A stretch of DNA of 36,124 bases from a virus. The notes beneath the pieces were generated by a model. It did not search any database and was not told where the DNA came from. It saw only the letters and a program-made list of their open reading frames with translations. How positions within the stretch are numbered: position 1 is the first letter of the stretch; the number at the start of each line of letters is the position of its first letter. Positions 9,490 through 22,030 of this stretch are shown here, piece after piece. The DNA lies in the IMG/VR virus record IMGVR_UViG_3300035190_000282, positions 1 through 36,124 of that record; one strand, given 5' to 3'. A program made the translations under genes and the position numbers.

Positions 9490-9505
9490 TTGCGACAATA
9501 TGCAA
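9490..9505. promoter_or_regulatory. Degenerate operator-like palindrome before the late operon
   Basis: TTGCGACAATATGCAA keeps the outer TTGC-N8-GCAA of the repeated 16-bp palindrome but has changed inner bases. It lies 56 bp before the ATG at 9434, next to a weak promoter (TTGTCG, 18 bp, TACGTT on the minus strand). It may let the same regulator act on the late operon. Weak evidence. Confidence 0.3.
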
Positions 9506-11572: not shown

Positions 11573-11896
11573 TTAGGCGGCGTGCCAGAATGATGCGATG
11601 AATCCCTCGTAGCGGCAGGACTCGGTGACGGAGTCGATTGTCTCCTGATTTTGCCCGTCGTGGACAATCATAACCGCATCGCTGCCGTCGATGTCGGCGC
11701 GGTATACGTGATAGCCAGTCTGGTTGCTGGCGTTCGGGCGGCTCTGCTCCTCATAGGTGCGGCCTTCTCCGCCGATGCTTTCGTCGAGTGCCTTGGCAAA
11801 TTCCAGCGCGGTCCCTGCGAAGATTTTGCCATTGAGGTCGGCGCTGTCGCCCCAGATGAAGCCAGAGTAATTGTCGATCAGAATGTAGCGTGCCAT
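11573..11896 (-). CDS. Hypothetical phage protein (107 aa), first gene after the paired operator
   Basis: ATG 11896 is chosen for its AGGGAG site; the longer in-frame form would run over the operators. The product starts MARYILIDNYSGFIWGDSAD, is acidic, and contains TALEFAKALDESIGG, TGYHVYRADIDGSDAVMIVH and a C-terminal GFIASFWHAA. I do not recognise the domain. It is the promoter-proximal gene of the leftward unit under the 18-bp inverted repeat, so it is probably made early and under phage regulator control. Confidence 0.7.
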   Translation of the reverse strand: MARYILIDNYSGFIWGDSADLNGKIFAGTALEFAKALDESIGGEGRTYEEQSRPNASNQTGYHVYRADIDGSDAVMIVHDGQNQETIDSVTESCRYEGFIASFWHAA

Positions 11897-11933
11897 GTGC
11901 GTGCTCCCTTGTTGATGCCCCCACCATAGCGCC

Positions 11934-11975
11934 ATTGCAGGAATCTGCAAGCGGAATCTTGCAGATTCCTGCAAT
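11934..11975. promoter_or_regulatory. Paired operators OL1/OL2 forming an 18-bp perfect inverted repeat
   Basis: Two 16-bp palindromes, TTGCAGGAATCTGCAA (11935-11950) and TTGCAGATTCCTGCAA (11959-11974), lie 24 bp apart. Together they make a perfect inverted repeat with 18-bp arms and a 6-bp spacer. On the minus strand one half site (TTGCAG) sits 16 bp before TATGGT (11923-11928), so binding would cover the promoter of the gene starting at 11896. The same palindrome pair with the same spacing recurs at 14991-15030. Confidence 0.8.
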
Positions 11976-12424
11976 CCCGTGGTGACGTAGCGTAACAGCC
12001 TGTACTGGGGGGGCAATTACCGATATGTCAGTACATCGGCTAGACATGGCCTGTCCGGGAAAATAATCGCCAGAAACCCTATGAAACACTGTACTTCTCT
12101 CTTAATAGTTCTTTTTTTTTATTATTAAGTACACCACCTTTCCCCCTCTCTATAGGGGGAGGGGGGAGGGGGGAGGGTGCCGGGTGTGTATATGACCCCC
12201 GCCCAAGTTAATGGATAATTCGCTTTTTTTCGCGTTTTATCTTTTGCAATCAATGACTTGAACGAAAAAAGTGCCTGTCCTTGATATTCCCCGGCATTGT
12301 CCCGGCAATGTTTTATTCGCACTGAGGGTCGAGGTCATCCCTGGCCACACCTTAGAGCAGGCCACAGATCAACACAGAGGGGCCACCAGTGGCAAAGACC
12401 TCGCAGCGGCTATGGTGGTGGCCC
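11976..12424. other. Gene-free region, candidate replication origin
   Basis: No convincing gene lies here. Visible structure: TGTACT/AGTACA at 12001, 12030, 12090 and 12128; an AT-rich inverted repeat CTTAATA...TATTAAG (12101-12129) enclosing a run of nine T; a G-run tract at 12155-12177 (G5, G6, G6 and G3 separated by single A) able to fold as a G-quadruplex; a second T-rich patch near 12223-12243; and two near-identical CCGGCAWTG units at 12290-12310. AT-rich DNA plus repeats beside the primase-helicase gene fits a replication origin. This is inference. Confidence 0.4.
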
Positions 12425-12454
12425 AAAACAGAAAAGGGGCCTGTGGAGGCCCCT
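12425..12454 (-). terminator. Rho-independent terminator after the primase gene
   Basis: Reading on the minus strand, AGGGGCCT and AGGCCCCT form a perfect 8-bp stem around CCAC, followed by the T-rich TTTCTGTTTT. It lies about 50 nt past the primase-helicase stop at 12503 and should end the regulator-primase transcript before the candidate origin. Confidence 0.85.
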
Positions 12455-12502
12455 AATCGCGTTGGCGCGGTGTATGATAAGGTTAAGAAACCTTTCTCTC
12501 CT

Positions 12503-14800
12503 TTACGGGGCGAACCATGCCAGCCGGGGGCGGCCCCTTTTGCCCTCGGTGGTATTGCGGCACTCAATGCCGTAATCTGCAACCAGCGTGTCCATCACCG
12601 CCTTACGCTTGAGCGGCTCCAGGCCTTTGAAGCCCCGGATCGCAGCAGCAAGTTCCGGCTCGGAAATTCCCTTGAGGCCCGACGTCTCGATCCGCTCATA
12701 GACCTGCTTGCACGTCTTTTCAAAAATGCCATCAGCCATCTTGCGCTTGAGGCCATCGACTGCGCGAAACGCGTAAAACCTAGCATAGTCTATCGCCCAT
12801 CTAAGACTGTCGGCACTGACCTCGCTCTCGCCCCGGCTCACGGCTACGATCAGGCCAAGCCGCATTGAGATCTCTTTTGTGCGGCCAAACATGGCATCAA
12901 GCCCAAGTCGATCATGGGCGTTCATGGCCTCGATCATCTCAGCGTCAAACTTCATAATCAGGTCTGCGCATTCGGTTGAAAAATTGACCAGCACCGGAGA
13001 CGGCGGCGTCTCATGGCTGTCGGCATCCAGGTTTCCGGCTTTTGCGGTAGCGCAGGCCTTTGCCCACTCGAGCAGGCGGTCAGTCGGCTGGATCATGCGC
13101 CGCATCTGCGAGACCTGCCTCCCGATAGGGCTTTCGACAATCAAGAAACGGCCCAGGAATCCATCAAGGACCGATTGCGAGGAGATGCCATCAAAGAGGG
13201 TTGACGGCGTGGTCATGGTCAGGAGTGTCAGGGACGGATTACGGACAAAACGGTCAAGCTCTTTTGCGTCCTGCTTCCGAAGGCCGAACTTGCTCATGCC
13301 GTGGCCGCGCAGGATGCTGTCCTGCCGCCCGAAAGCCTCCATCATGATAGTCTGGGCATCGGATTTGTGATGGTTGCCTTGGGCCTTTGCAGATTGCAGG
13401 ACGCGGCCTAACTCATCAATGACGGCGATATGGCAGGGCTGGTCGATGAGTGACGAGATAACGCCCGATGCCGAGGCATAGCCCGCAGGGCCGATGAGGC
13501 GTTCAAGGCCAGCCGTTTCAAGTAGTTTCTCAATCGTGGTCTTGGCATGCTCCTTGCCAGCCGAGGAGACGGCGACATTCAGGAAATACAGGCTGGAATA
13601 GTTGCGCTGGTCTGTCATCCATCGTCGCCCCATGACGACGGACCCGAATGCAAGAGCGGATTGGACAGCGAACTGCGGCTGCGCGCGTGCGGCAGTGGTG
13701 TTGTAATAGTTGACCACATCCTGGAGGATGCCGGGCACGGAGAGCAGATGATCCGGAATCGAGGCCAGAGGGTTGTCGGGCGGGGCAGCGCGGCGGCTGG
13801 GGATGATGTTGTTGGCGACTTGCCCGCCGTGGTCGATCCACTCGGCATCCTCCGGGGCATAGGCATTGGCTGGATCGGTGGTGATGTTGAGATAGGCCGC
13901 AGCGGCCTTAACTGCCTCTCGGGTGTTTCCGGCGTGTTCGCAGTGTGTGTAGAGGTCGAAGCAGTCGAAGGAGTGGGCCGAGTCAAATGGATCTGACCCA
14001 TGATGGCTGTAGGCGGTGCCGTCGTCGAACAGGATGACACCGGCGAGGCCTGATTTGCTGTTCGGACTGAGAAATCGATCCTTGGCTGTCTGCCGATAGC
14101 CGTACTGGGGCAGGAGCTGCGCCAACGCGTGCGCGGCATTGTAGGCATCAATGACGCTCGTGGCCTCGGACTGGATGCGCTTGCGCAGCGGGGCTTGCAG
14201 TTGAGGCTTTGTCTTCCACGAGCAGGCATCGATGAGCTGGATGCGAAATTTGTCCCACTGCTCCCACATGATCTGGAGAGGTTCCGGGAGCATGGGCAAA
14301 TCGGCATAGGACGGGCCGTCCCATTGATATGGCTCCTGCGTGTCTGGATGGATTGATGGCGGCAGCACATCTTGAGATCCGCAGGCGCGGAATTCAAAGA
14401 CGACTGTGGAGCCTTTGCCCTCGGGGTTCGGCCATGCGACCTTGTGCGTCTTGAGATCATCTCGGTGGGCGCGAAATATGGCCTTGCCTCGCCCTGGGCG
14501 ACCGATGATGCGCGGGGCTTTGGCGAGAATGGCATCGATGTCGACGCCCATTGCTGCGAAGGCCATCCGGCTCCACTCGAGGTGGTCGATGTCAATGGCG
14601 CATGTGCCGGATGCCGCGTGCAGCAGGCCGACGTTGTGCGTGGGATTCGCGGTGTAATATCGCTCGGCATCGTCGGGCTGACGTAGTGCCCGTTCGGGCT
14701 GCTGCCAGCCGAGTGCTGTCGGGGCTTTTGATCCAGCCGGGATGGTGACGAGCGCCCATCCCAGCTCCGTATAGTGTCTGACGCTCGCGATGATGTTCAA
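12503..14800 (-). CDS. Primase-helicase: Prim-Pol domain plus DUF3987-type ATPase
   Basis: About 765 residues. The N-terminal bifunctional primase/polymerase domain shows GWALVTIPAGSKAPTALGWQ, HNVGLLHAASGTCAIDIDH (metal-binding Asp72/Asp74) and RPGRGKAIFR. From about 360 a helicase-like ATPase follows with SSAGKEHAKTT (Walker A region, about 414-424), CHIAVIDELGRVL (Walker B) and the arginine-rich FDGISSQSVLDGFLGRFLIV. It probably primes and unwinds DNA at the phage origin, since no replicative polymerase is encoded. TTG 14800 is the preferred start because AAGGAGG sits 7 nt before it; TTG 14806 is only about 2 nt from that site. Confidence 0.9.
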   Translation of the reverse strand: MNIIASVRHYTELGWALVTIPAGSKAPTALGWQQPERALRQPDDAERYYTANPTHNVGLLHAASGTCAIDIDHLEWSRMAFAAMGVDIDAILAKAPRIIGRPGRGKAIFRAHRDDLKTHKVAWPNPEGKGSTVVFEFRACGSQDVLPPSIHPDTQEPYQWDGPSYADLPMLPEPLQIMWEQWDKFRIQLIDACSWKTKPQLQAPLRKRIQSEATSVIDAYNAAHALAQLLPQYGYRQTAKDRFLSPNSKSGLAGVILFDDGTAYSHHGSDPFDSAHSFDCFDLYTHCEHAGNTREAVKAAAAYLNITTDPANAYAPEDAEWIDHGGQVANNIIPSRRAAPPDNPLASIPDHLLSVPGILQDVVNYYNTTAARAQPQFAVQSALAFGSVVMGRRWMTDQRNYSSLYFLNVAVSSAGKEHAKTTIEKLLETAGLERLIGPAGYASASGVISSLIDQPCHIAVIDELGRVLQSAKAQGNHHKSDAQTIMMEAFGRQDSILRGHGMSKFGLRKQDAKELDRFVRNPSLTLLTMTTPSTLFDGISSQSVLDGFLGRFLIVESPIGRQVSQMRRMIQPTDRLLEWAKACATAKAGNLDADSHETPPSPVLVNFSTECADLIMKFDAEMIEAMNAHDRLGLDAMFGRTKEISMRLGLIVAVSRGESEVSADSLRWAIDYARFYAFRAVDGLKRKMADGIFEKTCKQVYERIETSGLKGISEPELAAAIRGFKGLEPLKRKAVMDTLVADYGIECRNTTEGKRGRPRLAWFAP

Positions 14801-14802
14801 AT

Positions 14803-14976
14803 TCAATCCTCCTTGGGGCTGAGATACCTCGACAGTTTCTCGATGGTCTCACTGTAAGCGCCGCCATTCCCGGCCTTGAGCGACTTGATTGTATTGTAGG
14901 CGAGGCCTGTGTCGCGGGCGACCTCGGCAGTTCGACGGCCTTGGAGGGCGGCAGTGATTTGTTCAACGGTCATCAT
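14803..14976 (-). CDS. Small helix-turn-helix regulator (57 aa)
   Basis: The product begins MMTVEQITAALQGRRTAEVA and continues as an XRE/Cro-like HTH, RRTAEVARDTGLAYNTIKSL, with a closing helix SETIEKLSRYLS. At 57 residues it is close to a minimal Cro-size DNA-binding domain. It sits next to the paired palindromes at 14991-15030, which overlap its likely promoter, so autoregulation is expected. Its stop overlaps the primase start region and carries that gene's AAGGAGG site. It is the only clear lysis-lysogeny-style regulator candidate in the window. Role inferred. Confidence 0.85.
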   Translation of the reverse strand: MMTVEQITAALQGRRTAEVARDTGLAYNTIKSLKAGNGGAYSETIEKLSRYLSPKED

Positions 14977-14990
14977 GGCTTAAACCTTTC

Positions 14991-15030
14991 TTGCAGGGGA
15001 TTGCAATTTTCTTATTGCAGACAACTGCAA
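14991..15030. promoter_or_regulatory. Paired operators in the divergent early control region
   Basis: TTGCAGGGGATTGCAA (14991-15006, one half site changed) and TTGCAGACAACTGCAA (15015-15030, full consensus) lie 24 bp apart, the same spacing as at 11935/11959. They occupy the 94-bp gap between the leftward HTH gene and the rightward early operon. On the plus strand TTGCAG (14991) lies 16 bp before TATTGC (15013), a weak promoter that binding would block. Confidence 0.78.
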
Positions 15031-15070
15031 AACATGCAAGAGATGGCCGTGTTGAGAAGAGGAGTGCGAG

Positions 15071-15460
15071 ATGCACAGTAGTAACGTCGAGGGGCTTTGC
15101 GGGGCCTGGCTGGAAGCCAAACGCCGCGAGGACGAGGCAAAAAAGGCGCGTCTGGAAGTCGAGGCCCAGATTGGTGCGGCCTTGGAGAAAAAGCCCGAAG
15201 GGGCCATCACTCACAAACTCACTGCCTACAAGGTCACGCTCACCCAGCCGATCTATCGCAAGCTGGACATTGAGACGTGGCATGGTCTCAAGATGCTCAT
15301 TGGTCAGGACTACTGGCCGGTGAAAACCATCCTCGAGGCCGATCCGTCGGGCTGCAAGTGGTTGGCGAAAGAACGTCCCGATCTCTGGGCGCTGATCGCT
15401 GATGCCTTCACCGTCTCGCCGGGTAAACTCGGCGTTGAAGTGAAGGAAGTCGACAAGTGA
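15071..15460 (+). CDS. Phage early protein (129 aa), first gene of rightward operon
   Basis: The start at 15071 has a GAGGAG site. The protein opens with a helical, charged stretch (AWLEAKRREDEAKKARLEVE), then TAYKVTLTQPIYRKLDIETW and a C-terminal CKWLAKERPDLWALIADAF followed by TVSPGKLGV. This coiled-coil plus small-domain build matches a family found beside Sak4-type recombination genes in phages. No function is established that I know of. Its stop overlaps the GTG of the next gene. Confidence 0.75.
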   Translation: MHSSNVEGLCGAWLEAKRREDEAKKARLEVEAQIGAALEKKPEGAITHKLTAYKVTLTQPIYRKLDIETWHGLKMLIGQDYWPVKTILEADPSGCKWLAKERPDLWALIADAFTVSPGKLGVEVKEVDK

Positions 15461-15636
15461 GCGCGAGCATCTGGGACGCAGCCGACGCACTGCAAAACGC
15501 ACGGGATCATCTTGTTGTTGCTCGCGCATCGCGCGGCATCCAGCGGGATCACGACATCAACCGAGCGAAAGAAAATGTCCGGGACGCCATGAAGCTTCTT
15601 GGAATCAAGGAGGTGGAAGATGGAAACAATTATTGA
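15457..15636 (+). CDS. Small helical early protein (59 aa)
   Basis: A GTG at 15457 overlaps the preceding TGA (GTGA) and opens 59 codons: VSASIWDAADALQNARDHLV, then RASRGIQRDHDINRAKENVR and DAMKLLGIKEVEDGNNY. It is almost wholly helical and charged. It ends 17 nt inside the next gene, whose AAGGAGGT site it contains. The 4-bp overlap supports a real gene. Function unknown. Confidence 0.6.
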   Translation: MSASIWDAADALQNARDHLVVARASRGIQRDHDINRAKENVRDAMKLLGIKEVEDGNNY

Positions 15637-16408
15637 AATCATCACGCCTGACAAAGCAGAAGAGTATCTGTCTCTCAACTCTGGCAACAGAGCACTGCGA
15701 AAATCACATATTGCAAAACTTGCTGCTGAAATGAAGCAAGGCAACTGGCAATGCACCCATCAAGGCATTGCATTTAACGACAAAGGCATCTTGGTGGACG
15801 GCCAGCACAGGCTTCACGCTGTGAAGATGTCAGGAGTCTGCGTCAAGATGCAAGTCACTAGGGGCGTCAAGACACTAGATCATCTGTCTCTCAAGATTGA
15901 TTTGTCGGCAAGGCGGTCTACGGGTGACTTGCTGAAAATGCCGACTAAAGTTGCCAGCGTCATAACTGTGCTGGCGCGACTTATGAATGGCTGGGGGAGT
16001 GTTCCGATTTCATACGTCGAAGAATGTTCCAAAGTATTTCGAAGCGATGCTGAAAGCATTTGCGCGCTTTCATCGTCTCATATGGCTTTGATTGACACCG
16101 CTCCGGTCAAAGCGGCGGCAGTCGCCATGTTAACACTCAGCAAGTCTTATTATGCTAATTCAGTCATGGTTAGGCTGAACGGTCAAATGTACGATCAGAT
16201 GACTCCTATTGAGCATGCATATTGCAAGATTTGCGCAATGCGAACCTATGACAAAAATGATCCATATAACACGTTCGCAAAGGCCTTGTCGGTTTTTGAT
16301 GAACGCAATGCTGCTGCTACTAAAGTGTATTTGTCAGAATTTCGCTACGCAGAAGCAAAAGATGCAGTGATAGCTAGAATGAAGGAGCATCAGAATAATG
16401 GCAATTGA
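15620..16408 (+). CDS. ParB-like / DGQHR-type phage protein (262 aa)
   Basis: ATG 15620 lies 5 nt after AAGGAGGT and is preferred over the upstream TTG 15599. The N-terminal third is a ParB-fold region: ITPDKAEEYLSLNSGNRALR, KSHIAKLAAEMKQGNWQ, then GILVDGQHRLHAVKMSGV with the signature DGQHRL. The rest is helical. Members occur in phages as predicted DNA-binding or nucleotide-dependent regulators. Base composition is clearly AT-richer than neighbours, suggesting later acquisition. Exact role unknown. Confidence 0.8.
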   Translation: METIIEIITPDKAEEYLSLNSGNRALRKSHIAKLAAEMKQGNWQCTHQGIAFNDKGILVDGQHRLHAVKMSGVCVKMQVTRGVKTLDHLSLKIDLSARRSTGDLLKMPTKVASVITVLARLMNGWGSVPISYVEECSKVFRSDAESICALSSSHMALIDTAPVKAAAVAMLTLSKSYYANSVMVRLNGQMYDQMTPIEHAYCKICAMRTYDKNDPYNTFAKALSVFDERNAAATKVYLSEFRYAEAKDAVIARMKEHQNNGN

Positions 16409-17153
16409 TCTCAAAACCCTGAGCAAGCCGGTGGGGCAACGCCCCATCATCGCCACGCTGTTTGGCGAGGGCGGCATGGGCAAGACGACGCTGGGGGCAA
16501 TGTTTCCCAGTCCGGTCTTTATCCGCACCGAGGACGGCACGGCATCGCTGGCGGGGAATGAGGGTGTCGCCTTGTTTCCTCTGGCGACAAAGAGCCAAGA
16601 CGTCCTCGACGCCATCGAGGCGCTGGCTTCCCAGCAGCACAATTATAAAACGCTAGTGCTGGATTCGATCACGCAGCTTGCTACGCTGATCGAGAGCGAG
16701 ATTGTGGCGGCTGATCCAAAGGCCAAGAGCATCAATCAGGCGGGCGGCGGTTACGGGGCGGGATACAATGCCGCCGCCGATATGCATCGCAAGATCCGCG
16801 ATTGGGCTGGGACACTGGCCTACGACAAGGGGATGAATGTCGTCTTTATCGGCCACGCTGACACTGAGACGCTGGATCTGCCTGACAGCGATTCCTATGC
16901 TCGCTATACAATCCGGATGCACAAGAAGAGCATTCCGCATTACACCGACAACGTCGACCTGGTTGGGTTCATCCGGCTCAAGACGTACCTCACTGGAACG
17001 GGGGAGAAGAAGCGCGCGGTCTCGACAGCGGAGCGGGAGATCATCTGCCACCCGCAGGCGTCGAGCGTCACCAAGAACAGGTTCAACATTGACAAGCCGG
17101 TGCCATTCACTTTTGGCGGCGGCAACCCCTTCAACAATTTCGTAGCAAAGTAG
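16398..17153 (+). CDS. Sak4-like RecA-fold ATPase (AAA_24), single-strand annealing recombinase
   Basis: 251 residues with Walker A GEGGMGKTT at 23-31, VFIRTEDGTASL, Walker B-type KTLVLDSITQL at about 83-93 and NVVFIGHADTETLD. This is the phage nucleotide-binding AAA_24 / Sak4 family, a short RecA relative that pairs single strands during recombination-dependent replication. It precedes a DUF669 protein, the usual partner in such cassettes. Its start overlaps the previous gene by 11 bp. Confidence 0.88.
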   Translation: MAIDLKTLSKPVGQRPIIATLFGEGGMGKTTLGAMFPSPVFIRTEDGTASLAGNEGVALFPLATKSQDVLDAIEALASQQHNYKTLVLDSITQLATLIESEIVAADPKAKSINQAGGGYGAGYNAAADMHRKIRDWAGTLAYDKGMNVVFIGHADTETLDLPDSDSYARYTIRMHKKSIPHYTDNVDLVGFIRLKTYLTGTGEKKRAVSTAEREIICHPQASSVTKNRFNIDKPVPFTFGGGNPFNNFVAK

Positions 17154-17162
17154 GAGACGAGA

Positions 17163-17633
17163 ATGAGACTTGACGGATTTAATGCCGGCGCCATTGAGCC
17201 AGCGGCACCCCGCGGGGCAATCCCGGCGGGAAAGTACAAGTGCGTGATTGTGTCGAGCGAAGAGCGTCCGACCAAGGCGATGACAGGATCAATGCTCAAA
17301 CTTCAGATGCAGGTCATCGAGGGGCCGCATCAGGGGGCAATGGTGTTTGACCAGCTGAACATCAACAATCCCAGCCAGACGGCGCAGGAAATCGCCCAGC
17401 GCACGCTCTCGGCCATCTGCCGCGCAACTGGCGTGATGATGCCGCAGGATTCGAGCGATCTCCACAACAAGCCGCTGCTGGTGACGGTGCGGGTGGAGAA
17501 CTCGCAGGAGTACGGGGCGCAGAACAAGGTGAACGGTTACGAGCCATGCGGTGGTGGTGCAGCGGCTCCTGTTGCTGCGGCTGCTGCGGTTGCAGCTCCT
17601 GCGCCATCGAATCTGCCGCCCTGGAAGCGGTGA
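17163..17633 (+). CDS. DUF669 protein, probable single-strand DNA-binding partner
   Basis: The 156-residue product has the DUF669 pattern: IPAGKYKCVIVSSEERPTK, GSMLKLQMQVIEGPHQGAMV, FDQLNINNPSQTAQEIAQRT and LSAICRATGVM. The C-terminus is an Ala/Pro linker ending SNLPPWKR, similar in style to SSB tails that recruit partners. DUF669 genes commonly sit next to Sak4/Erf-type recombinases. Single-strand binding is inferred from context and tail. Confidence 0.85.
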   Translation: MRLDGFNAGAIEPAAPRGAIPAGKYKCVIVSSEERPTKAMTGSMLKLQMQVIEGPHQGAMVFDQLNINNPSQTAQEIAQRTLSAICRATGVMMPQDSSDLHNKPLLVTVRVENSQEYGAQNKVNGYEPCGGGAAAPVAAAAAVAAPAPSNLPPWKR

Positions 17634-17644
17634 TGTGAAACACG

Positions 17645-17664
17645 GGGGCGGCTTCGGTCGCCCC
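17645..17664 (+). terminator. UUCG-capped stem-loop in early operon
   Basis: GGGGCGGC-TTCG-GTCGCCCC forms an 8-bp stem (one G-T) with a UUCG loop in the 54-nt gap after the DUF669 gene. No T run follows, so it probably stabilises upstream mRNA or reduces read-through rather than ending the operon. Confidence 0.55.
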
Positions 17665-17687
17665 TGATCACAATCAAAGGATAAACC

Positions 17688-17912
17688 ATGAAAATCGAGC
17701 AACTCGCAGAGATCGTAACAATGTTGGCGCAAAACCATCCCGGCGCGGAAGTGTCGGTTGTGCATCGCGCAAAGCATGGCCCGAAGGGCTACAGCAATAT
17801 TCTCAAGCCGATCACGGGGTATCAGACCAGAATGAGGTTCAAGCCTGGTGCAATTTATTTGAACGTAGATGGAGCGGAATACGATGGAAAGAATGACGCC
17901 AATGCCGAGTGA
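17688..17912 (+). CDS. Small early protein (74 aa)
   Basis: ATG 17688 with AAAGG upstream. The sequence is MKIEQLAEIVTMLAQNHPGA, then EVSVVHRAKHGPKGYSNIL and GAIYLNVDGAEYDGKN. It has a helical N-terminus and a beta C-terminal half. I do not recognise it. It overlaps the next gene by about 29 bp. Confidence 0.6.
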   Translation: MKIEQLAEIVTMLAQNHPGAEVSVVHRAKHGPKGYSNILKPITGYQTRMRFKPGAIYLNVDGAEYDGKNDANAE

Positions 17913-18123
17913 ACCGGTTCAGATCACATGGGCGTGCGGGAATGATGCCCGCAAGGAGCTGAACGAGTTCAGAGAGATCGCTGCATTCTTGAACGGATAC
18001 AAGGCCGCGCGTTTTGTTGCCGAGAGCATGGGGACGAGGCCGTGGAGCGAGTTTCCCAAGGAGCCTGACTTTACCTATCTGGAATCGATGATCGAAGACT
18101 TGGCGACAAAGACGGCTGAATGA
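17884..18123 (+). CDS. Small early protein (79 aa)
   Basis: Several ATGs are possible (17869, 17884, 17893); 17884 has the best GGAG spacing. The core is EPVQITWACGNDARKELNEF, REIAAFLNGYKAARFVAESM and a C-terminal YLESMIEDLATKTAE, mostly helical. No family recognised. The stop overlaps the next ATG (ATGA). Confidence 0.55.
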   Translation: MERMTPMPSEPVQITWACGNDARKELNEFREIAAFLNGYKAARFVAESMGTRPWSEFPKEPDFTYLESMIEDLATKTAE

Positions 18124-18566
18124 CAATGTGGACCGAGGCCAGAATCAAAGAAAAACTGGACGGCAATTTCTGGTTCTTCGATCAGGAAGGCAAGCAGCAC
18201 CATCAATTCGTCGACCCAACGTGGATGCCGAAGCATAAGAAATCAAATAATCCATACGCCATTGTCATTAAGAAAGACCCAGGGGTGAAGTGGAGTCGTG
18301 AATCCTACGACCTGATCCTGGAGATGCGCGGTGACGGCATGTCGTGGCCGATGATCGGAGACATATTTCAGGTGCCGGTGTCGACCCTGACAGACTACAC
18401 AAAAAAGATGCAGCGCATTCGTGCGATGCAGGCCGAGCGGGATGCAAACAAGATTAAGGTTGATGAGGTGCGCCGCATGATTGCGGCAGGGTATGATCTG
18501 GAGCGGATCAGAAAAGAGACGGGATACGATAGACGGTTAATCAAGGACGTGTTTGAGGAGGAGTGA
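18120..18566 (+). CDS. Probable DNA-binding protein with two HTH-like segments (148 aa)
   Basis: The N-terminal 50 residues (GNFWFFDQEGKQHHQF, DPTWMPKHKKS) are unfamiliar. Two HTH-like segments follow: RGDGMSWPMIGDIFQVPVST (about 70-90) and IAAGYDLERIRKETGYDRRL (about 121-140), separated by a charged helix. This fits a DNA-binding regulator or replication accessory factor. It ends directly before the Cas4-like nuclease and contributes that gene's GGAGGAG site. Confidence 0.65.
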   Translation: MTMWTEARIKEKLDGNFWFFDQEGKQHHQFVDPTWMPKHKKSNNPYAIVIKKDPGVKWSRESYDLILEMRGDGMSWPMIGDIFQVPVSTLTDYTKKMQRIRAMQAERDANKIKVDEVRRMIAAGYDLERIRKETGYDRRLIKDVFEEE

Positions 18567-19499
18567 ATGAAATTGGACATGCGAGCAGCAATCGTAAAGG
18601 CAATCTATCAGGTATACGAGGACCGCCGGAAGGAGCCACACAGGCCGCATCTAGGTGGATCTCAGATCGGCAATTCGTGCAGTCGCGCGCTCTGGTATCA
18701 GTTTCGGTGGGCATGGCATCAGCAGCACGAGGGGCGCATCCTGCGCTTGTTCGAAACAGGCGAACGGGAAGAGTCGCGTGTCATCCAGAACCTGCGCGCC
18801 GTGGGATGCACGGTATGGGAGCGTGATCCTGACACTGGAATGCAGCCTCGGTTCACTGCGCACGGTGGGCATTTTGCCTTGAGCCTCGACGGCGTGATCG
18901 AGGGGTTGCCGGAAAGCTCCAAGCCTCACACGCTCGAGGTCAAGACGATGAGCGAGAAGTATTTCAAGGCACTGAGCAACCTTGGCCTTGAGAAGGCGAA
19001 GCCGATCTATTGGGCGCAATGCCAGATCGGAATGCATCTAAGCGGGCTGGATCGTTGCCTGTTCGTCTCGGTGAATAAGAACACGGATGAGATTTATGCC
19101 GAGCGAGTTCGGCACGACAAGGCATATTGCCAGACGCTGATCGACAAGGCCGGAGGTATCATCTTTTCTGATAAGCCGCCGTCTGGCATCAGTTCCGATC
19201 CGGCATGGTTCGAGTGCAAGTTCTGTCCCTATCATTCAGTCTGCCAAGGTGATCAAATGCCCGAATTGAATTGCCGCACATGCGCCTTCTCAACACCTGA
19301 GAAGGCTGGCAACTGGTCATGCGCAAGGCACAAGAAGGCGCTGGACGAGATTGAGCAATACACAGGCTGCGGAGACCACATCTATATCCCTGACCTTGTG
19401 AAGCTGCCTGTGCATGATACGGGCGAGGATTGGGTTGAATATGTGACCGAGGAAGGCGAGGTAGTGCGCAATCACAAGAGGAGGATGGGGAATGCTTGA
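18567..19499 (+). CDS. Cas4/RecB-like PD-(D/E)XK nuclease with Cys clusters
   Basis: 310 residues. Nuclease motifs: HFALSLDGVIEG (Asp107) and HTLEVKTMSEKYF (Glu123, Lys125), then a QxxxY-type region around YWAQCQIGMHLSG. Cys38 (IGNSCSRALWY) plus Cys216, Cys219 and Cys225 (WFECKFCPYHSVCQG) match the 4Fe-4S staple of Cas4/AddB nucleases. A second cluster (ELNCRTCAF, NWSCARH) may bind zinc. It would resect DNA ends to feed the Sak4 annealing system and overlaps the helicase by 8 bp. Confidence 0.88.
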   Translation: MKLDMRAAIVKAIYQVYEDRRKEPHRPHLGGSQIGNSCSRALWYQFRWAWHQQHEGRILRLFETGEREESRVIQNLRAVGCTVWERDPDTGMQPRFTAHGGHFALSLDGVIEGLPESSKPHTLEVKTMSEKYFKALSNLGLEKAKPIYWAQCQIGMHLSGLDRCLFVSVNKNTDEIYAERVRHDKAYCQTLIDKAGGIIFSDKPPSGISSDPAWFECKFCPYHSVCQGDQMPELNCRTCAFSTPEKAGNWSCARHKKALDEIEQYTGCGDHIYIPDLVKLPVHDTGEDWVEYVTEEGEVVRNHKRRMGNA

Positions 19500-21114
19500 A
19501 CTCCGCCCCTATCAACGCGCTGCCATTGATGGCCTGTACGAATACTGGGCCAACAAGAAAGGTGATAACCCATTATTAGTTTGCCCCACTGGATCAGGCA
19601 AGAGCCTCATCATCGCGCACCTGGTCAAGGATGCAATGAGCTTCCTTGGCACGCGCGTCTTGATGCTCACGCATGTCAAGGAGCTGCTAGAGCAGAACGC
19701 AACGGAACTGCTCAACCTGTATCGCGATGCCGATGTCGGTTTCTATAGCGCGAGCCTCAAGAAAAAAGTGCTGCATCGCGCCGTCACATTCGCTGGCATT
19801 CAGTCTATTCACAAACGCGCTTTCGACATGATCCCGCCGCCTGACCTCGTGATCGTAGACGAATGTCACCTGATTCCGCGATCCGACAGCACACGCTACA
19901 ACAAGTTTCTGTCCGATCTGAAGCTGGCGAATCCTGCGGTGAAGATTGTTGGCCTCACCGCAACGCCATACAGGCTTGACAGCGGGTGGCTGCACAAAGG
20001 CGAAGGCGCGATCTTCGACGGGATTGCCTACGATATCCCGGTGGCCGATCTCATGGAGCAGGGATTCTTGGCTCCGGTTGTGAGCAAGGCTGGAGTGCGC
20101 AAGATCGACCTTTCCGAGGTAGGACATCGCGGCGGGGAGTTCATCGAGAGCGAGCTTGCCAAGGCGGCATCTGATCCAGAATTGGTGCGGGAGACGGTGG
20201 CCGAGATTGTCCAATATGGATCCGACCGCAAGGCGTGGCTGATTTTTGCTTGCGGCGTGATCCATGCGAACATGATCCGCGATGAGTTCCAAGTGCACGG
20301 GATCGAGGCGCATGTCGTGACCGGAGCCGATGGCATGACGGAGCGGGCCGAAAAGATCGAGCGGTTCCGCCGGGGCGCTTACAAGTGCCTGATAAATGTC
20401 AACGTGCTGACCACGGGATTCAACGTGCCGCATGTGGATCTGATCGGCATTGTGCGGGCGACGGAGAGCGCAGGGCTTTACGTCCAGATCGTTGGGCGTG
20501 GAACCAGGCTTGCGCCGGGGAAGACTGATTGCCTCGTGCTGGACTACGGCGACAACGTGATGCGCCACGGATTCATTGACAAGGTCAAGCCCAAGATCAA
20601 GAGCAAGACCGATGATGGTGAAGCGCCGTGCAAGGAATGCCCTAGCTGCCAGACCATCCAGCACGCGGCGATGCGAAACTGTGTCACCTGTGGTTACGCA
20701 TTCCCGCCACCTGTTCTCAACCACGGGAATAAGGCCTATAGTGGGGCCATGATCTCGACACAGGTACAGGCCGAATGGGTGATTGTTGACGATGTGGGAT
20801 ATTCCCGCTGGCGCAAGGAAGGCAAGCCTGACAGCATCCGCGTCACCTATTATTGTGGCCTCATCAAAGTATCTGAGTGGCTTTGCCCCGATCACGGAGG
20901 CTATGCTGCCGAGCGTTATATCAAGCGCATGGCCGCACTGGGTGCAACAGCAACCACCACCGAAGAGGCGATAACTGAATGCGACACATGGATCAGGCCG
21001 AGCAAAATCAAGGTAAAACCGAATGACAAATTCTACGACATCGTCCAGCTCGACTACAGCAAGCCCCAGCGCCTCACAGAGGCCGAACGAGCAGAACTCA
21101 TGGAACCTCTGTAG
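19492..21114 (+). CDS. SF2 DEAD/DEAH-box helicase
   Basis: 540 residues with all core motifs: Q-like LRPYQRAAI, CPTGSGKS (31-38), DECH (123-126), GLTATPY (about 154-160), NVLTTGFNVPHVD, and motif VI QIVGRGTRLAPGK. A zinc ribbon (CKECPSCQ, CVTCGYAFPPP) follows, then a C-terminal domain containing YYCGLIKVSEWLC. This is the UvrB/RAD3-like phage helicase type. With the neighbouring nuclease it forms a processing pair for replication or recombination. AGGAGG precedes the ATG. Confidence 0.94.
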   Translation: MLELRPYQRAAIDGLYEYWANKKGDNPLLVCPTGSGKSLIIAHLVKDAMSFLGTRVLMLTHVKELLEQNATELLNLYRDADVGFYSASLKKKVLHRAVTFAGIQSIHKRAFDMIPPPDLVIVDECHLIPRSDSTRYNKFLSDLKLANPAVKIVGLTATPYRLDSGWLHKGEGAIFDGIAYDIPVADLMEQGFLAPVVSKAGVRKIDLSEVGHRGGEFIESELAKAASDPELVRETVAEIVQYGSDRKAWLIFACGVIHANMIRDEFQVHGIEAHVVTGADGMTERAEKIERFRRGAYKCLINVNVLTTGFNVPHVDLIGIVRATESAGLYVQIVGRGTRLAPGKTDCLVLDYGDNVMRHGFIDKVKPKIKSKTDDGEAPCKECPSCQTIQHAAMRNCVTCGYAFPPPVLNHGNKAYSGAMISTQVQAEWVIVDDVGYSRWRKEGKPDSIRVTYYCGLIKVSEWLCPDHGGYAAERYIKRMAALGATATTTEEAITECDTWIRPSKIKVKPNDKFYDIVQLDYSKPQRLTEAERAELMEPL

Positions 21115-21226
21115 TAATTGCATGAGCCTTTACGATAAAAAATATTGCACGCACTGGCGCGATGTCGTGCCGGATGAGGTGCAGAAAAGAGGCTGCGATG
21201 CGTTTGATTCAATCCCTCCCTTCTGA
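21023..21226 (+). CDS. Small Cys-rich, zinc-finger-like protein (67 aa)
   Basis: The frame overlaps the helicase C-terminus by 92 bp in another frame. After a Ser/Thr-rich start (MTNSTTSSSSTTASPS) comes LCSNCMSLYDKKYCTHWRDV and KRGCDAFDSIPPF. The C-x2-C-x8-C...C pattern and the PPF end match a type of tiny phage zinc protein I recall. Two of the cysteines precede the next internal ATG, so the early start at 21023 is needed for an intact site. Confidence 0.6.
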   Translation: MTNSTTSSSSTTASPSASQRPNEQNSWNLCSNCMSLYDKKYCTHWRDVVPDEVQKRGCDAFDSIPPF

Positions 21227-21584
21227 ACACGACGAGCAGGCTGGATTCGTTCAATGGTTCCGCGCGAAGTGGCCGAACGTGCTGATCTATGCGATTCCAA
21301 ATGGTGGCAAGCGCAGCATCTCGACGGCTAAAAAACTGCGGCGAGAGGGCGTCACGCCTGGCATTCCTGATCTCCATATCCCTGCATGGGCGATATGGAT
21401 CGAGATGAAACGGCAGAAAGGCGGGCGCACCTCGCCGGATCAGGATGCGATGATTGAATATCTTGAGCATGTCGGTCATCGCGTGATTGTCGGCAATGGG
21501 GCGATGGACGCGAGCGATAAGTTGCTGAAGTTGCTAAATTTGGGCGGGGCGGCAGGCGAAGGAGTGGCACCCACCGCCCCATGA
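21198..21584 (+). CDS. VRR-NUC domain nuclease (128 aa)
   Basis: ATG 21198 has a GAGG site 6 nt upstream and is preferred over 21162. The VRR-NUC / Holliday-junction-resolvase-like fold is shown by SEHDEQAGFVQWFRAKWP, IPNGGKRSISTAKKLRREGV, TPGIPDLHIP (Asp) and WIEMKRQKGGRTSPDQ (Glu-x-Lys, Gln). These phage nucleases are thought to cut branched or flap DNA and fit the recombination cassette. The last residues are Ala/Gly-rich. Confidence 0.9.
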   Translation: MRLIQSLPSEHDEQAGFVQWFRAKWPNVLIYAIPNGGKRSISTAKKLRREGVTPGIPDLHIPAWAIWIEMKRQKGGRTSPDQDAMIEYLEHVGHRVIVGNGAMDASDKLLKLLNLGGAAGEGVAPTAP

Positions 21585-21623: not shown

Positions 21624-21639
21624 TTGCAGATTGGTGCAA
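21624..21639. promoter_or_regulatory. Operator-like palindrome before the secreted-protein gene
   Basis: TTGCAGATTGGTGCAA matches the 16-bp consensus at all but one half-site base. It lies in the only sizable gap of the early operon, 53 bp before ATG 21677. TTGGTG repeats overlap it and a weak -10 (GATACA) lies about 18 bp on, so a separately regulated promoter is likely. Confidence 0.5.
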
Positions 21640-21676: not shown

Positions 21677-22030
21677 ATGCGTTTGACATTGTTCGCCGCA
21701 ATGGCCGCGCTGTTGATTGCTGCCGGGAGCGCAGAGGCGCGTGAGCCAGGCCAGCCGAAGGGTTGCCCCTTGCGTTGGTGCGGCTGCTATCTCGCCCACT
21801 ATTTCGGCATGCCGCATCGCAAGGATCTATGGCGGGCACGCAACTGGGCCAAGATCGGACGTGCGACCAAGGCGCGGATTGGAGCCATTGTGGTCTGGCC
21901 CAATCACGTTGGTGTGATCGTGGGCAGGACGGCCAAGGGCTGGGTTGTGAAATCCGGCAACGACGGCAACCGTGTGCGAGCGCGGGTGAGGACAGTCCAC
22001 AATGCAATTGCTTTTAGGGCGCTGAAGTAA
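21677..22030 (+). CDS. Secreted CHAP-like protein (117 aa), host-type moron
   Basis: ATG 21677 lies after GGAGGT. Residues 1-22 form a signal peptide (MRLTLFAAMAALLIAAGSAEA). The mature part has CPLRWCGCYLAHYFGMPHRK, LWRARNWAKIGRATKARIGA and IVVWPNHVGVIVGRTAKGW then VVKSGNDGNRVR. This Cys...His CHAP/NlpC-like core closely resembles small exported proteins I recall from Rhizobiales chromosomes. A periplasmic cell-wall amidase or endopeptidase role is inferred. With its own operator-like site it looks like a cargo gene in the early operon. Confidence 0.8.
   Translation: MRLTLFAAMAALLIAAGSAEAREPGQPKGCPLRWCGCYLAHYFGMPHRKDLWRARNWAKIGRATKARIGAIVVWPNHVGVIVGRTAKGWVVKSGNDGNRVRARVRTVHNAIAFRALK

Follow-up and report, generated by a model that had tools for sequence, protein, structure and literature searches.

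Paired palindromes at a fixed 24-bp spacing, probable operators of a 57-residue Cro-type protein in an uncultured phage family

The early region and its HTH protein

The window, the whole stretch of DNA that was analysed, is the 36,124-base IMG/VR virus record IMGVR_UViG_3300035190_000282. Its leftward early operon begins with the gene for a 57-aa Cro/C1-type HTH protein (P0001; 14803..14976, minus strand), which is followed in the same direction by a primase-polymerase/helicase gene (12503..14806, minus strand; Prim-Pol, E 6e-19; phrog_3022, E 4e-81). Divergent from it is a rightward early operon (15071..21584, plus strand) that encodes a Sak4-like annealing protein, a ssDNA-binding protein, a Cas4-type exonuclease, a helicase, and a VRR nuclease. 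A further leftward operon, whose first gene is of unknown function (11573..11896, minus strand), lies downstream of the primase. The roughly 530 bp between the primase end and this operon's upstream sites (11975-12502) are noncoding, contain an A/T-rich stretch next to a run of C/G, and are partly common to the relative L009; this DNA is possibly a replication origin. In seven related loci (L012, L013, L032, L066, L077, L095, and L097), the interval between the HTH gene and the primase is about 0.6-1.1 kb longer than in the window, possibly because a gene, for example that of a homing endonuclease, has been inserted there.

Sequence profile and a compact helical fold both point to the 57-aa protein as a Cro/C1-type HTH transcriptional regulator. 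It matches phrog_18104 (transcriptional regulator, E 3.4e-8) and the Pfam family HTH_26 (E 4e-4), the latter at 21 bits, just under the cut-off of 22. Its AlphaFold2 model has four helices (pLDDT 85.8), for which Foldseek returns a probability near 1 to SinR, C.Kpn2I, P22 c2, and 434 Cro, with no E-value below 0.001; further fold matches include the N-domain of AcrIIA15, C-proteins, and Aca11. A PDB sequence search with the HTH profile gave no convincing relative, no sequence homology with λ Cro was detected, and no oligomerisation domain was recognised in the protein, its C-terminal part included. In one relative (L061:7023-7202), the HTH protein carries about eight extra residues past the recognition helix (DNSRRLIDGSESGARYETI).

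Palindromic sites in the window

The original prediction held that TTGCAG-N4-CTGCAA palindromes at 11935, 11959, 14991, and 15015 form two pairs with identical 24-bp spacing, with variants at 21624 and 9490. The sites at 11935, 11959, and 15015 match this sequence exactly, and that at 14991 has one mismatch to it and none to the core TTGCA-N6-TGCAA. With the site at 21624, the window holds five exact cores, and the site at 9490 is one mismatch away. Both pairs (11935/11959 and 14991/15015) measure 24 bp start to start, leaving 8 bp between palindromes, a spacing that is kept across relatives as well. All five exact cores lie in noncoding DNA, in agreement with the intergenic control positions that had been proposed, and none lies in coding DNA, so that the motif is not equally frequent within genes. 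The noncoding share of the window is 6% by a hand-made gene list, and random sequences of the same noncoding composition contain on average 0.004 exact cores. Furthermore, a 24-bp pair was absent from all 2000 Markov sequences, even when one mismatch per site was tolerated. The palindromic sites are real and far above chance.

The proposed consensus requires revision. When up to three mismatches to TTGCAG-N4-CTGCAA are allowed, there is only slight enrichment in the window (33 versus 20.7), and thus the weak matches inside genes are background. Among 17 distinct sites from the pair downstream of the primase (pair 2), columns 1, 2, 4, 5, 12, 13, 15, and 16 are invariant and columns 3 and 14 almost so, while column 6, the inner G/C of the longer consensus, is almost free. 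The idea of a specific operator therefore stands, but its conserved form is TTGCA-N6-TGCAA. A perfect 18-nt inverted repeat (11934-11951/11958-11975) had also been pointed out at pair 2. It is present in the window, but relatives do not keep it, and consequently it is an incidental effect of the complementary centres that two palindromes have; a conserved cruciform was rejected on the same ground. An Rfam search gave no match.

Arrangement of the two pairs at putative promoters

Promoters were positioned by conservation; a scan with the E. coli consensus did not pick them up and gave nothing above shuffles. The putative promoter of the HTH gene, P_HTH (15011..15039, minus strand), would consist of a -35 TTGCAT (15034-15039), 17 bp, and a -10 AATAAG (15011-15016), and TTGCAN-N17-AATARN is conserved here among distinct relatives. 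The putative divergent promoter of the recombination/replication operon, P_right (15015..15043, plus strand), would have a -35 TTGCAG, 17 bp, and the sequence AAGAGA, a weak -10 that reads AATAAG in L009 and L010. The two would overlap nearly as mirror images, each -35 lying beside or inside the other's -10. At this HTH promoter, L009 and L081 share the flank CTTATTGCA, in which the mirrored -10 is AATAAG.

Two operators make up pair 1. O1 (TTGCAGACAACTGCAA, 15015..15030), an exact core that is conserved in L004-L006 and has one mismatch in L009, overlaps the spacer and -10 of the putative P_HTH and covers the region common to both promoters. O2 (TTGCAGGGGATTGCAA, 14991..15006), also an exact core, lies 24 bp away and spans the predicted HTH transcript start. 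The O1-O2 spacing recurs in L004, L005/L014, L006, and L009, and two palindromes or near-palindromes 24 bp apart are found upstream of the HTH gene in the window's group and L009. In the L010 and L015 groups, half-sites or one-mismatch palindromes occupy nearly the same places in the HTH promoter, with no clean 24-bp pair.

At pair 2, the downstream operator (TTGCAGGAATCTGCAA, 11935..11950) contributes a half-site as the -35 of a putative promoter, P_left2 (11923..11950, minus strand; -35 TTGCAG at 11945-11950, 16 bp, -10 TATGGT at 11923-11928), before the gene that starts at 11896. The upstream operator (TTGCAGATTCCTGCAA, 11959..11974) would lie at about -51. Counterparts of P_left2 in relatives read TTGCAR-N16-TATGGT/TAGGAT or N17-GATAAG, and reading frames homologous to the 11573..11896 gene follow the pair in L012, L030, L033, L044, and L061. 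In every locus where the primase end could be placed, pair 2 is found downstream of the primase. The search admitted any spacing from 16 to 50 bp, and 14 of 14 distinct sequences have 24 bp. The DNA between the palindromes varies (gattccgc, cataacgc, catggggc, gattactc; taagaaaa at the HTH promoter, on its coding strand). Thus, it is the length of the spacer that is kept, not its sequence.

Conservation across relatives and an unbiased scan

The original prediction had proposed comparison with related phages, and in these the 24-bp pairs recur. Relatives in IMG/VR were found with the HTH protein (four) and with the primase (eleven loci); they form one clade, and their counts are consequently not independent events. 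The 17 related records that were scanned whole, 459 kb in all, contain 37 exact cores versus none for reversed-motif controls, and those cores that were placed belong to pair 1, to pair 2, or to the late site discussed below.

A second comparison started from the sites themselves. IMG/VR was scanned for two exact cores separated by any gap of 0-30 bp, and 88 tandem pairs in 80 loci were kept (95 stretches reported). A gap of 8 bp, that is, 24 bp start to start, accounts for 30 of the 88, the next largest gap classes having 8 each. Homologues of the window phage's HTH, primase, Sak4, ParB, or leftward genes are carried by 28 of the 30 gap-8 loci; of the remaining two, one (L053) shows the same pair sequence at the end of a contig, and the other (L062) probably arose by chance. 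Among the other loci kept, L081 alone, with a 7-bp gap, is a member of the family. The operator pattern is thus a marker, since an unbiased scan with it retrieves the phage family.

The suggestion that the 57-aa HTH protein is the likely binder gains support from these comparisons: the conserved palindromes adjoin its gene, and the gene is present in pair-bearing relatives whose contig covers that place. The HTH gene and its upstream half-sites persist down to about 40% protein identity, with the recognition helix YNT[IV]K retained. In the distant phages CRP-901 and CRP-902, which have been described as strictly lytic Roseobacter phages (PMC10149686), the HTH-primase order and divergent layout are kept, the recognition helix is SHPTVK, and the half-sites are TTTACAG-N13-CTGTAAA, present in each genome as a single copy ahead of the HTH gene. 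This single contrast fits a regulator and site that change together. Many marine relatives (L171-L250) have a conserved TTTACA-N17-TAAAGA promoter upstream of CRP-901-type HTH genes, with mirrored TTTACAG/CTGTAAA half-sites.

Single sites and the breadth of the regulon

The site at 9490..9505 (TTGCATATTGTCGCAA on the minus strand; one mismatch to the core) follows a terminator and precedes the ParB/methyltransferase gene that leads the terminase-portal-capsid late operon. Its counterpart is identical in L060, an exact palindrome in L009, and two palindromes 23 bp apart in L081; L047 and L037, which have the same late operon, have none. The exact site at 21624..21639 (TTGCAGATTGGTGCAA) is downstream of the VRR nuclease gene, and its left half could serve as the -35 of TTGCAG-N16-CATGAT before a secreted-protein gene (21677-22030). 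The homologous place holds two one-mismatch sites in L081 and one in L009, the next gene being different, and no counterpart was found in L010/L011-, L014-, or L017-type relatives. The secreted-protein gene was rejected as a conserved target; its homologues (L114-L128) lie in other contexts and have no site. Both single sites are lineage-restricted and belong to the circuit only in the window's close kin. In most relatives, exact sites are confined to the leftward pair, and the HTH promoter retains half-sites; the regulon is consequently small. The notion of a regulon thus holds for a specific operator but not for its breadth, the conserved pairs being confined to two places.

Similar pairs in bacterial genomes

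Erythrobacteraceae and other alphaproteobacteria carry TTGCAAWCGWTTGCAA pairs at 24 bp (L129, L133, L134, L136-L143, L146-L148, L151, L153-L155, L160, L162-L166, L169, and L170). In L146 and L137, these adjoin genes for an MFS transporter and a LacI-family regulator, and the pairs are probably those of a sugar-uptake regulon. A third pair type, which has no central CG (TTGCACGTTCATGCAA / TTGCACAGTTGTGCAA; L130:2713, L145:4124, L161:830), is conserved among Hoeflea, Oricola, and a Rhizobiaceae MAG, the copy in L130 lying between aldehyde dehydrogenase and 3-hydroxyisobutyrate dehydrogenase-like genes. On two Ruminococcus contigs (L156:145-232 and L159:6320-6407), at least four TTGCA-N6-TGCAA palindromes form tandem repeats with a period of 24 bp, an arrangement that resembles iterons or an array of several operators.

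A model for early regulation

Taken together, these results have led to a model, to which we assign a probability of about 0.7, in which the 57-aa Cro-type HTH protein that the phage itself encodes uses the palindromes as operators, represses its own synthesis, and shuts off early promoters. The protein would be the first to be made from the leftward early HTH-primase operon, and it would probably dimerise and bind TTGCA-N6-TGCAA. At pair 1, which would cover the spacer, -10, and start region of P_HTH, with one operator also overlapping P_right, this geometry implies that the bound protein would repress its own gene and lower the expression of the recombination/replication operon. At pair 2, one operator would overlap the putative -35 of the next leftward operon, with the other 24 bp upstream. 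That this distance is fixed is most likely a consequence of contact between neighbouring dimers or of coupled binding via the DNA. The spacing is not a by-product of promoter geometry, since the promoter register differs between the pair locations while the spacing does not; two registers with one spacing argue for contact between the bound proteins or some other coupling. Cooperativity is thus favoured by the constant spacing in two promoter contexts, but cooperativity of the λ CI type cannot be assumed, because the protein has just 57 residues and no recognised oligomerisation domain.

It could be argued that a host regulator, rather than the phage protein, binds the sites, which the phage has borrowed; the 24-bp TTGCA-N6-TGCAA pairs of bacterial genomes, mainly Erythrobacteraceae, would be in line with this. 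However, LacI-type proteins normally need a central CG in the operator. Such a CG is present in 63 of 90 host sites, which in the two cases checked lie beside LacI-family and sugar-transporter genes, but in none of 25 distinct phage sites. A LacI-type host binder was rejected for this reason, and because the phage sites also track the phage HTH gene, a host regulator is very unlikely. We give equally little credence to the proposal that the TTGCA elements are mainly promoter parts, namely -35 hexamers together with -10s that overlap in mirror image. In its favour, TTGCA and TGCAATAA stand 17 bp apart in both directions at the HTH promoter, and at pair 2 a half-site falls at the putative -35. 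Promoter parts alone, however, would not explain full palindromes that keep 24 bp in two promoter registers, or single palindromes that recur at other promoters; moreover, one of the paired operators lies upstream, near -51, a position at which promoter elements are not expected.

An extension of the model, in which the same protein is an early repressor and also a late activator, is unlikely. At the late operon, a possible -35 (TTGCAA-N15-TATAAT in L009) follows immediately after the single site, which stands where activators typically bind, and activation there is possible. Nevertheless, the promoters are putative, the site is missing in L047 and L037 despite the same late operon, and small Cro proteins are usually plain repressors; we infer repression over activation. 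Somewhat more doubtful still is the fullest version, in which an HTH protein of minimal size (57 aa) that lacks an oligomerisation domain would act cooperatively at λ-like 24-bp pairs, run the whole programme of a lytic family, repress mirror-image early promoters, and activate the late operon in some lineages.

Relation to known systems

The operator circuit proposed for the 57-aa protein is of the Cro type, familiar in kind, in a phage family that is probably lytic. Like Cro and OR/OL of λ and lambdoid phages, it combines a small HTH protein of the Cro/C1 fold with operators at divergent early promoters, palindromes some 16-17 bp long, and would act on two early operons. In λ, OR1 and OR2 are 24 bp apart centre to centre, the same distance as in the window pairs. 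In contrast to λ, no CI-type repressor, integrase, or other integration gene was seen among the subset of ORFs scanned, no third operator was found, and the HTH gene precedes the primase rather than lying in an immunity region. A prophage search with the primase in bacterial genomes gave no relative.

Other regulators share parts of this arrangement. Phage φ29 p4 is an early-encoded regulator that acts at inverted repeats at divergent promoters and switches early to late transcription; the window protein is likewise early-encoded with inverted repeats at divergent promoters, but it is unrelated in size and family, and its predicted role is repression. The Aca (anti-CRISPR-associated) proteins are small HTH proteins of phages that repress their own genes; the promoters of these genes contain one inverted repeat or two, of which IR1 lies in the core promoter (PMC9410906). 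The window protein resembles them in being a small phage HTH protein with inverted repeats at its own promoter, and Aca11 and AcrIIA15 are among its fold matches. Unlike in the Aca systems, however, no anti-CRISPR gene was identified beside the HTH gene, whose neighbours are primase and recombination genes, and sites are also present at other operons. The tandem operators attributed to LacI-family proteins in Erythrobacteraceae share the 24-bp TTGCA-N6-TGCAA pairs but differ in the central CG, the chromosomal sugar-uptake genes, and the protein family. Since the phage sites never have a central CG, they are a separate system with the same geometry. Neither the LacI-like operator sequence nor a lytic Cro system that matches this one was found in the literature searched, which also gave no description of transcriptional timing in this phage family.

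The least usual features of the system are the very small protein, the fixed λ-like spacing, and the mirror-image promoters. With its fixed 24-bp spacing and so small an HTH protein, it would show cleanly whether a separate domain is required for adjacent operators to be occupied cooperatively. The sites and their probable binder provide a concrete, conserved, and small regulatory circuit in a phage family that is itself uncultured but has links to lytic Roseobacter phages that have been isolated.
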